Virus record (IMG/VR): IMGVR_UViG_3300032289_000484
Location: 1 to 22,129 of that record
Reading direction: 5' to 3' (one strand)
Source of the DNA: a virus
Length of the DNA: 22,129 nucleotides
The position numbers and the translations under genes are program-made. This document shows positions 12,906 to 15,808 of the stretch, in pieces; within the stretch, counting starts at the first letter, position 1; each line of letters begins with the position of its first letter. Under the pieces are notes generated by a model. That model did no database searches. It was not told the DNA's origin and was given only the letters and a program-made list of their open reading frames with translations.

Positions 12906-13100
12906 TCATTTGCATATTCTTTCTTTAGCTTCTTTAAGATTAGAGTTCATTAGCCAAGCAGAGCATTGAGAATCGATTGTAAGGGCGTTTTTACCGTCTC
13001 TGAAGCCAGCGTTATAGGCTGACTGTACTCTGGTAGTAAGCACAACAGAACAGCCCCATAGAGCCGCTAATAAAGCCGCAAACACTAATAGCACTTTCAT
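12906..13100 (-). CDS. Small membrane-anchored or exported protein
   Basis: A 64-residue protein starting in an ATGA overlap with the XRE repressor gene. Residues 1-24 form a hydrophobic segment (MKVLLVFAALLAALWGCSVV), followed by a polar domain with two Cys (SQCSAW and ERICK). LWGC vaguely recalls a lipobox but Trp at -2 is unusual, so I treat it as a signal anchor rather than a lipoprotein. Short one-span proteins with an AYNAGFRDGK-type stretch occur in many phages. A role in superinfection exclusion or host-envelope modification is possible but unproven. Confidence 0.55.
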   Translation of the reverse strand: MKVLLVFAALLAALWGCSVVLTTRVQSAYNAGFRDGKNALTIDSQCSAWLMNSNLKEAKERICK

Positions 13101-13288
13101 AATAATTCACGTATTTGTTTAACTGGAATTTTAAATGTCTCATGGATTTTTAAAATCATGTCTGCTGAAACATTAATTACTCCGCTTCTAATCTTACTTA
13201 TTGTCGGTGCTTTTGTTTTTAATAAACGGCTAAGTTCAGCATCGTTTTTTACTTTATAGCGTTCTTTAATAAAATCTAACAATTTCAT
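13097..13288 (-). CDS. XRE/Cro-type transcriptional regulator
   Basis: A 63-residue, single-domain helix-turn-helix protein. The helix pair spans about residues 17-37: AELSRLLKTKAPTISKIRSG, with the recognition helix at APTISKIRSG. This matches the lambda Cro/434 family of small dimeric repressors. It has a good TGGAG ribosome site and ATGA coupling to the next gene. It is the obvious candidate to regulate the divergent promoters at 15177-15221. There is no C-terminal dimerisation or autoproteolysis domain, so it is Cro-like rather than CI/LexA-like. Two terminator-like hairpins lie directly upstream with no room for a promoter between them and the gene. Confidence 0.8.
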   Translation of the reverse strand: MKLLDFIKERYKVKNDAELSRLLKTKAPTISKIRSGVINVSADMILKIHETFKIPVKQIRELL

Positions 13289-13302
13289 AGTTACTCCAGA
13301 AT

Positions 13303-13328
13303 AAAAAGACAGGAGCCGAAGCCCCTGT
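13303..13328 (-). terminator. Intrinsic terminator with UUCG tetraloop
   Basis: On the minus strand ACAGGGGC, loop TTCG, GCTCCTGT forms an 8-bp stem with one G-U pair, followed by C then TTTTT. UUCG loops on GC-rich stems are exceptionally stable. It lies after the ERF/SSB-like genes and about 15 nt before the XRE start. Confidence 0.8.
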
Positions 13329-13332
13329 TAAA

Positions 13333-13356
13333 AGCCCTAGAAGGAGGATTAGGGCT
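13333..13356 (-). terminator. Second hairpin, tandem with the UUCG terminator
   Basis: On the minus strand AGCCCTA pairs with TAGGGCT around a 10-nt loop containing CCTCCTT, followed by a short TTT. It comes just before the UUCG hairpin in the direction of transcription. The T-run is weak, so it may be a tandem terminator arm or an RNA regulatory hairpin. Confidence 0.55.
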
Positions 13357-13368
13357 GCGAGATAGTTA

Positions 13369-13623
13369 TCAAAATGGTATGAGATCGTCAGGATCAGCCG
13401 CTACTACTGGCTTATTGACTGGCTTAGACGCTGCGTCAGTCTTTGGACGTACCGATAGGCTAAAGAACTTTTTACCGTCCTTCTTGCTCTCTTTAAGCCA
13501 ACCAGATAACCAGAAATCAGTACCAGATACATTGACGCTACCTGAATAATCCGGATGGTTTTCACTCGTTTTATTCTCATTTCGGTATAAAACGCCTCTA
13601 TCAGTATTATCGTATTCAGTCAT
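13369..13623 (-). CDS. SSB-like small protein with acidic IPF tail
   Basis: An 84-residue protein. The start is ATG 13623 (MTEYDNTDRGVLYRNENK), one base after the ERF stop and behind AGGGAAAT; an in-frame upstream ATG inside ERF is less likely. Text such as HPDYSGSVNVSGTDFWLSGW and KKDGKKFFSLSV occurs in small phage proteins with an OB-like beta barrel. The last ten residues, AADPDDLIPF, closely copy the C-terminal tip of bacterial SSB (acidic then IPF), which recruits replication and repair proteins. Coupling to an ERF annealing protein supports a single-stranded DNA role. That it binds ssDNA is inference. Confidence 0.7.
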   Translation of the reverse strand: MTEYDNTDRGVLYRNENKTSENHPDYSGSVNVSGTDFWLSGWLKESKKDGKKFFSLSVRPKTDAASKPVNKPVVAADPDDLIPF

Positions 13624-13624
13624 A

Positions 13625-14287
13625 TTATTTCCCTGTTGAAAATTTCTTAATTGCACTACGCTCTTTACTATCTAACCTACTCCAGAATGCAGTTTTTGTA
13701 TCTGCGTCAAACTCTTGCAGATTAATGTAATCAATAACTCCCTGCATATCATTACGTCCTATAAGCATACGTACATCCATAGCTATGTTTTCGATAAGTT
13801 CTTTAGTCTCATCATCTAGGCTATCAAATACATCTACGGTAATAGGTTTGGCTGACTTAGGTTCGTCTTTCTTGATCGTAGCGTCTACAGCGTCATGCTC
13901 CGTAATCTCTAGGGCATTTAGGAATAAGTATCGTCGTAGATACGTATGCATCGATCCTAGAGCCTGTATAGGAGGTGCTTTACCTGCTCCGGCTTCTGCG
14001 ATAGGACTGCGAAAATAAACGACTCCACCGAACTCTGAATCAAAGATACGTAATGTTGCTACATCTTCACTAATGCTAAAGACTGAGCATAGTCCTAGAT
14101 CGTCAAATATCGTATTAATGCTAGGCAGGAAGTCTGCCAGTTCAAAGTATTTGAATCCTGCGAATGAGTTAAAGCCTGACTTCTTGAGCGGTAATTCTTG
14201 TAGTAATACTCTGGCTTTTTGCAGCTTGCTATATACAAGCCATTGTTGCTGTTCGTGCTGCTCTTGCAATTGATAGTCGTTATTCAT
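13625..14287 (-). CDS. erf: ERF-family single-strand annealing protein
   Basis: A 220-residue recombinase of the P22 Erf superfamily (PF04404). Diagnostic blocks: KSGFNSFAGFKYFELADFLP at residues 36-55, then the strand-helix region ending IQALGSMHTYLRRYLFLNAL (107-126) and EITEHDAVDATIKK (127-140). Erf proteins form rings that anneal complementary strands for phage recombination and genome circularisation. The C-terminal part (about 145-220) is a helical tail that in the family contacts partners. A paired SSB-like gene follows after one base. The start is ATG 14287 behind AGGAA. Confidence 0.88.
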   Translation of the reverse strand: MNNDYQLQEQHEQQQWLVYSKLQKARVLLQELPLKKSGFNSFAGFKYFELADFLPSINTIFDDLGLCSVFSISEDVATLRIFDSEFGGVVYFRSPIAEAGAGKAPPIQALGSMHTYLRRYLFLNALEITEHDAVDATIKKDEPKSAKPITVDVFDSLDDETKELIENIAMDVRMLIGRNDMQGVIDYINLQEFDADTKTAFWSRLDSKERSAIKKFSTGK

Positions 14288-14935: not shown

Positions 14936-15150
14936 AGTATTCTCCTAGTTATCTATCCATTGTTGTGACTTAATAACACTAGCATTTTTAAACTTACTTT
15001 TAAGTAATTTATCAATTCCTCTTTGAGTTAGCTGTTGTTTATTTTTGCCACGTATCCAAGTGCCAAATTCTCTGTAAGCATTAACTTCATCGTCAAAAAT
15101 TTTGTATGTAACAGAGTAAGCATATTTTGTTTTCATAGTATTCTCCTAGT
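14930..15150. repeat. Duplicated 20-bp translation leader
   Basis: The 20-mer tttcatagtattctcctagt occurs exactly at 14930-14949 and 15131-15150. On the minus strand it supplies the ribosome site TAGGAG, the spacer and the ATGAAA start of two consecutive small genes. It suggests either duplication of a whole leader or selection for an efficient early initiation region. Confidence 0.75.
14945..15136 (-). CDS. First gene of leftward operon, unknown function
   Basis: A 63-residue basic protein, MKTKYAYSVTYKIFDDEVNA then YREFGTWIRGKNKQQLTQRG and a Lys/Ser-rich end. Beta strands followed by a helix are likely. Not recognised. It lies about 35 nt downstream of the predicted start of the TTGACA promoter and has a TAGGAG ribosome site, so it should be expressed strongly and early, as is usual for host-directed phage proteins. 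Confidence 0.6.
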   Translation of the reverse strand: MKTKYAYSVTYKIFDDEVNAYREFGTWIRGKNKQQLTQRGIDKLLKSKFKNASVIKSQQWIDN

Positions 15151-15176
15151 GGTTAATAGTGTGTTGCAGCGAAGAA

Positions 15177-15206
15177 ACTATAGCTCATCACAATCTTGTA
15201 TGTCAA
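15177..15206 (-). promoter_or_regulatory. Strong sigma70-type leftward promoter
   Basis: On the minus strand a perfect -35 TTGACA (15201-15206) is followed after 18 bp by TATAGT (15177-15182). Transcription should start near 15170, about 34 nt before the ATG at 15136, and drive the operon down to 12627 subject to the hairpins at 13303-13356. An ACAA-TC-TTGT half-site pair (15190-15199) lies within the spacer and could be an operator. Confidence 0.8.
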
Positions 15207-15215
15207 CAACTTTTT

Positions 15216-15227
15216 TAAAATTATTTT
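15216..15227 (+). promoter_or_regulatory. Rightward promoter candidate, leaderless start
   Basis: TAAAAT at 15216-15221 sits 6 nt before ATG 15228, so a normal +1 would coincide with the ATG. No Shine-Dalgarno precedes the ATG. The likely -35 region (around TCTTGT, 15194-15199) overlaps the -35/spacer of the leftward promoter, so the two polymerases would compete. Confidence 0.45.
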
Positions 15228-15711: not shown

Positions 15712-15730
15712 TCCTAGAGGATTTACCGGA

Positions 15731-15808
15731 ATGGCTAGGGAATGCAACCCGAAAAGACGATTTCTCACCGTCCTGCCATACCACCTACTTTGTGAGAATT
15801 GCCATTGA
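15731..15808 (+). CDS. 25-residue Cys-containing micro-ORF
   Basis: A short frame, MARECNPKRRFLTVLPYHLL then CENCH, behind AGAGGA (spacing 9). It resembles the end of small phage zinc-finger proteins with a terminal CxxC, but the first knuckle has only one Cys (REC-NPK), so it may be a degenerate or shortened copy. The alternative frame through this stretch would extend the initiator N-terminally by 45 residues of unconvincing sequence. Low confidence. Confidence 0.35.
   Translation: MARECNPKRRFLTVLPYHLLCENCH

Follow-up and report, generated by a model that had tools for sequence, protein, structure and literature searches.

Intrinsic terminators with partial read-through are a familiar part of phage operons, as in the case of lambda tR1 and the T7 terminators, where the terminator separates co-directional genes and the downstream gene has no promoter of its own. 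Transcription attenuators also place a terminator in the leader, ahead of the regulated gene. At the ends of mRNAs, a C-rich, anti-Shine-Dalgarno-like loop followed by a terminator is characteristic of the CcsR sRNAs, which bear the name 'cuckoo' and have CCUCCUCCC loops. CcsR1-4 are described as 3'-UTR-derived sRNAs (PMC8625941). Here we describe a phage locus for which these systems are the closest known comparisons. The window, that is, the whole stretch of DNA analysed, is a 22.1-kb virus record with a leftward operon that runs from a strong promoter-like site, PL, through small genes, ERF, ssb and XRE to a 64-aa ORF. The 80 nt from the ssb stop to the XRE start contain two hairpins, H1 and H2, and five T. 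The features are as follows:

15177..15206, minus strand: PL, sigma-70-like promoter of the leftward operon (TTGACA-18-TATAGT), 11/12 consensus bases
13625..14287, minus strand: ERF-like ssDNA annealing protein gene (Pfam ERF 7.8e-13, PHROG 155 2.8e-23)
13369..13656, minus strand: ssb, single-strand DNA-binding protein gene (PHROG 7364 9e-17)
13333..13356, minus strand: H1, 7-bp hairpin with loop ATCCTCCTTC, beginning 12 nt past the ssb stop
13309..13328, minus strand: H2, 8-bp hairpin with a UUCG loop (ACAGGGGC, TTCG at 13317-13320, GCTCCTGT)
13303..13307, minus strand: U-tract of H2, five T preceded by a C; mean pairwise identity of the tail 98.9% in 38 contigs
13294..13297, minus strand: GGAG ribosome site of XRE, from the sequence
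13097..13288, minus strand: XRE-like HTH protein gene, 63 aa (Pfam HTH_3 below cut-off; PHROG 4441)
12906..13100, minus strand: 64-aa ORF with an N-terminal membrane-like stretch, its start overlapping the XRE stop by 4 nt

The true start of ssb may be an internal ATG at codon 12. The 4-nt overlap between XRE and the 64-aa ORF recurs in all eight close relatives inspected and in L188. The initial annotation called XRE a repressor, a name that goes beyond a 63-aa HTH protein matching PHROG 4441 and, only below the cut-off, Pfam HTH_3. Relatives of this protein were not found in named phages, and bacterial genomes contain a single weak one, in Collimonas. The window also contains an Rfam int-alpA RNA just above the cut-off, close to where a rightward gene begins (15728-15797, plus strand; 37.2 bits versus a cut-off of 35.8), as does L039 (1710-1777, minus strand; 40.8 bits versus 35.8), whereas none reached the cut-off in 12 other related loci.

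The two hairpins and the source of the XRE transcript

Both hairpins are real: the 54-nt block folds at -22.3 kcal/mol, compared with -12.6 +/- 2.4 for shuffles (z -4.09, 0/200 as good). Folded alone, H2 gives -13.2 (z -5.0, 0/200 shuffles as good), and H1, composed on the minus strand of AGCCCTA (13350-13356), the loop (13340-13349) and TAGGGCT (13333-13339), gives -9.6 (z -2.4, 2/200). They had been annotated as tandem terminator-like hairpins. The tandem arrangement and the terminator-like character of H2 stand, but H1 does not qualify. An intrinsic terminator combines a G+C-rich hairpin with an immediate U-tract; H2 has both, conserved in 38/38 contigs (the window and the relatives described below), whereas in the 36 contigs scored no U-tract directly follows the H1 stem, the tail being UUUU-AAC in the window and UUU in most relatives (three or four U before an A, C or G). 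With the d'Aubenton-Carafa formula, applied with our own reading of the T-score and therefore usable for ranking alone, H2 scores 2.9 to 12.7, above zero in 38/38 contigs and top among the window sites scored on both strands, while H1 scores -53 to -25 in 36/36 (L057 and L058 were left out because their upstream RNA folded as two hairpins), which rules it out as a second terminator. In the first 20 kb of the window, scanned on both strands, H2 is the sole strong terminator-like site; the number of such sites is itself uninformative, since 8 were found and 13.5 were expected from shuffles. An initial wide hairpin pattern produced 0 matches. Termination may be weak, because most relatives have a C immediately 3' of the H2 stem and the run of U is only five residues long.

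From the last T of H2 to the XRE ATG at 13288 there are 14 nt, leaving, as previously claimed, no room for a promoter. A separate XRE promoter was sought farther upstream, and the 38 loci have no conserved sigma-70-like site within 400 nt: under a 9-of-12 rule one is present in just 5/38, at scattered positions, which is rarer than the 36% of mononucleotide-shuffled controls. PL is the best promoter site in the scanned 20 kb and passes the same rule in 26/31 PL regions, with TTGAC in 31/31. Around it (window 15137-15227), GTTGTTGAC and GCAA flanks are conserved in relatives and represent a possible candidate for an XRE operator.

Since XRE has no visible sigma-70-like promoter of its own, it would be supplied most simply by transcripts reading through from PL. 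The dependence on read-through proposed in the initial annotation agrees with the conserved terminator and with the lack of a conserved sigma-70-like promoter; that read-through is the sole source we infer. A conserved intrinsic terminator stands ahead of XRE, which probably lives on read-through. We consider the following account of the XRE leader within a polycistronic transcript rather likely. A leftward early transcript from PL would carry the small genes, ERF, ssb, XRE and the 64-aa gene, and H2 would act as an intrinsic terminator at which most transcripts of ERF and ssb stop, just short of XRE. The read-through fraction would yield XRE and its overlapping 64-aa neighbour, at a level below ERF and SSB. 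H1 would most likely be a folding spacer shielding H2 from upstream RNA, and also from a ribosome stopping 6-12 nt before H1.

Association of the block with XRE in related phages

The ssb search, from which 80 of 270 loci were kept, yielded 39 loci with ssb at least 75% identical. L059 and L068 end before the ssb stop, leaving 37 readable relatives and, with the window, 38 contigs with 34 distinct blocks. In 37/37 of these close relatives, which are not independent of one another, H1 and H2 are located directly upstream of XRE. The gene on the other side is ssb in 30 of the 38 contigs, an HNH gene in three (L064, L066, L069), a 52-codon Cys-rich ORF in four (L053, L060, L063, L072) and another ORF in one (L073), the HNH and Cys-rich names being given by eye. 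Four kinds of upstream ORF are therefore found against one kind of downstream gene. Because the upstream gene changes while XRE stays, the block belongs to XRE and not to ssb, ruling out that it is simply the 3' end of ssb. The insertion point of the HNH endonuclease-like gene falls precisely at the junction of the ssb stop with the hairpin block, and the stop codon of this gene is as far from H1 as the ssb stop. When 2.9 million viral contigs were scanned with the H2 sequence, 28 stretches had one match each, all preceding XRE. No copies of the window block were found in named phages, where 19 blastn matches (E 0.1-0.4) resemble generic UUCG hairpins and were discarded, and a literature search found no paper on the block. 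In a distant relative, a tRNA gene lies immediately 3' of ssb (L099:339-410).

Both stems are conserved, consistent with the initial annotation. H2 pairs in 272/272 cells across the 34 distinct sequences; three of its pairs vary, always to standard pairs, with only one changed on both sides, and the covariation gain over shuffles is small. Identity is 0.92 for H2 (20 nt) and 0.99 for its tail (9 nt), where XRE third codon positions average 0.49, a comparison restricted to the 429 of 703 contig pairs whose XRE third positions are less than 0.6 identical. H1 is more varied, with 15 variants of nine stem types across the 38 contigs, reduced to 3 pairs in L054 and L056. Its arms pair in all contigs, by construction of the fold, and 63% of positions pair when arms are swapped between stem types (counted by script and not from the MAFFT alignment). 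The compensated variation of the stems, which are not fixed, and the folding of every variant weigh against a further explanation, namely, that the block is a module boundary, a short homology for swapping ssb-side and XRE-side genes by recombination with an ordinary terminator as a passenger. Although four upstream gene types adjoin one block and the H1 stem type does not, by eye, track the XRE type, we regard this explanation as highly improbable.

The H1 loop carries CCUCC or a near form in ~30/38 contigs, on differing stems. The motif is missing in L029, L049 and L051, though all three retain GGAG, and is altered to UCCUUC in L038 and L053. It had been suggested that this loop pairs with the ribosome site of XRE. 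The longest match between the loop and the Shine-Dalgarno (SD) sequence is 3.97, versus 3.32 (sd 0.12) for shuffled loops and 2.55 for coding stretches. However, loop and SD do not change together, with 3.62 for own versus 3.72 for swapped partners in the window clade (24 distinct pairs) and 4.69 versus 4.83 in the leaders of sister phages (45 pairs). Together with the three contigs devoid of the motif, this leaves the pairing unsupported as a conserved translational mechanism. Any C-rich loop would fit any SD; pairing is possible but without covariation support. CUCC is also present in the loop of a hairpin, P3, in the sister leaders (57/59 loci), so some role for the H1 loop is conceivable. 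One such role would be in trans: the terminated ssb transcript could give rise to a 3'-UTR-derived sRNA, in the manner of CcsR1-4, with H1 providing an anti-Shine-Dalgarno CCUCC loop and H2 the terminator. The retention of the motif on several different stems and its recurrence in P3 are in line with this possibility, but its loss or alteration in the five contigs above and the trivial complementarity of SD sequences to such a loop make it quite improbable.

The position of H1 relative to translation bears on another alternative. H1 begins 6-7 nt past the upstream stop codon in 28/38 contigs and 12 nt past it in 8, including the window, being farther away only in L057 and L058. A terminating ribosome would thus be within reach, as expected for a regulated attenuator in which H2 read-through is switched by an antiterminator, turning XRE on late or on demand. 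The switch could be a protein, the position of a ribosome at the stop codon upstream, or base pairing between the H1 CUCCU loop and AGGGG/AGGAG of H2, and the loop is indeed complementary to the H2 5' arm in most contigs (by eye). On the other hand, the loop motif is not universal, each of the two hairpins forms on its own in the best fold, and no antiterminator gene was identified. Alternatives sought by eye included no antiterminator fold, the dominant fold making up 57% of the ensemble. The sequences thus lend no support to a switch, or to the self-timing device proposed in the initial annotation. We consider regulated attenuation unlikely and prefer the reading in which H2 would be a terminator with read-through and H1 its spacer.

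The ssb-XRE interval in sister phages

XRE sits downstream of ERF-ssb in more distant phages too. The more surprising point beyond the window coordinates is that, in these sister phages, the same slot is occupied by an RNA of quite another kind, with strong covariation. The sister set consists of 66 contigs in which XRE is present and its leader can be read; 30 were obtained through the ssb search and 36 through an XRE search (80 loci kept of 242). No H1/H2 block was seen in the sister leaders inspected. Instead, XRE is preceded in 60/66 contigs by module B, which comprises a 4-bp P1, the H-type pseudoknot P2 with 6 columns, and P3 with a G/UGA internal loop:

L185:2901-2984, plus strand: module B, between ssb and XRE
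L188:2901-2985: module B, between ssb and XRE
L154:2875-2962: module B, between ssb and XRE
57 further loci: module B, between ssb and XRE

Pairing holds in 95.9% of cells over 44 distinct MAFFT-aligned sequences, versus 25-54% when slid, although for P3 this is partly by construction, since the sequences were chosen by a regular expression demanding P3 pairing (P1 and P2 were not demanded). Changes on both sides are found in 14/21 pairs, and the covariation score is 0.498, compared with 0.04-0.06 slid and 0.179 shuffled. R1, a covariance model restricted to P1 and P3, detects a single copy per locus in 60/79 sources (13 of which have no readable XRE leader), most matches being training sequences or copies thereof; outside the regular-expression picks it recovers L082 (91.0 bits), L159 (78.3) and L195 (33.0). 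When R1 was applied to 16 whole records, none of the eight from the window clade (G001-G008) matched and six others gave one strong match each. On the window block, R1 scores 3.6 bits at the right site, which is not significant. Homology of H1/H2 to module B looks likely by eye, yet with this score it is not claimed: the two have their position in common, while descent of one from the other is without support.

The six sister contigs devoid of module B have other folds in the leader: a plain hairpin in L097 and, in the other five, a loop-E-like module A, recognised by script in L074 and L094 and by eye in L079, L084 and L089. Module A (stem-GAAAGC...GAGTA-stem) is present in 68 copies in 42/66 loci, its strict pattern occurring 53 times versus 0.05 in shuffles. 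In L087 (4252-4692), L081 (4252-4918), L091 and L110, tandem loop-E-like modules in 1-4 copies, with further hairpin modules, occupy a long ssb-XRE stretch, and in some cases small Cys-rich genes lie between the modules. L079, L089 and L097 carry a differently built hairpin and ATTTTTAT before XRE, which speaks for the read-through account; two of these hairpin sequences are identical and one has a changed stem, CCUCG/CGGGG versus GCCCG/CGGGC. A run of five T within 30 nt before XRE is found in 6/66 sister loci and is absent from the other 60; a terminator ahead of XRE is therefore no general feature, which speaks against the read-through account.

Module B is also not specific to XRE, since it occurs in other settings, in Erwinia phages Ea9-2 and Tellus and, by blastn and R1, in Cronobacter phage JK004 and Pseudomonas phage LKA5. 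It adjoins annealing-protein-like, RNA-ligase-like and methylase-like genes as well (names by eye). A loose pattern scan combined with R1 gave at least 21 loci at E <1e-3 among the 70 loci listed, some of them in XRE settings. Module B cores away from XRE (L200:1495-1597, L201:1495-1597, L321:1497-1542, L322:1497-1557, L243, L244, L245, L272) belong to Erwinia, Cronobacter and Pseudomonas phages and to G+C-rich phages, and several of these copies start 3-9 nt past a stop codon. E. coli genomes gave no match. In Rfam, nothing exceeds the cut-off. The best match is Proteo-phage-1 (RF03044), with 16.2-19 bits at R1 sites against a cut-off of 42 bits, which was reached by 0/10 records; sub-cutoff matches to this family occur also in 4/14 control genomes, and L081 and L185 are not matched at all. 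Proteo-phage-1 and module B have in common the core AGCCGG..AGUG..AAC.CCGGCAGC and the strand order of the pseudoknot, but module B has the extra P3 hairpin with its G/UGA internal loop. Module B would thus be, at most, distant kin of Proteo-phage-1. A literature search, with most subscription papers outside its scope, found no paper naming 'Proteo-phage-1'.

Taken together, these observations allow a broader reading, which we offer tentatively, as a possibility. XRE might always be led by a folded regulatory RNA, with the kinds swapped between lineages: a pseudoknot and P3 RNA (and loop-E-like modules) in the sister phages, and a hairpin with an intrinsic terminator, mostly with a CUCC loop before the XRE ribosome site, in the window clade. 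Module B would then represent a novel phage RNA of wide distribution, remotely related to Proteo-phage-1 and extending to Erwinia, Cronobacter and Pseudomonas phages, and module B and the terminator would serve one function through different mechanisms.

Comparison with known systems

If H2 read-through sets the dose of XRE, one cheap element would couple the regulator to how much transcript of the recombination genes is made. One fixed intergenic site with different folded RNAs by lineage also provides a natural comparison for the role of these RNAs on the following gene, and module B is a strongly covarying, testable structure with relatives in cultured phages (Ea9-2, LKA5, JK004). Among the described systems, transcription attenuators have the leader terminator in common with this locus, but the antiterminator fold, the leader peptide and the ligand have no counterpart seen here. 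The CcsR sRNAs resemble it in the succession of C-rich loop and terminator, whereas here a single motif hairpin is present, in a phage setting, and the motif does not occur in all relatives. The phage terminators exemplified by lambda tR1 and those of T7 match it in lying between co-directional genes with no separate promoter for the second. Unlike them, however, H2 is only 14 nt from the start codon and follows another conserved hairpin, and the block stays with one regulator gene as the upstream gene changes.
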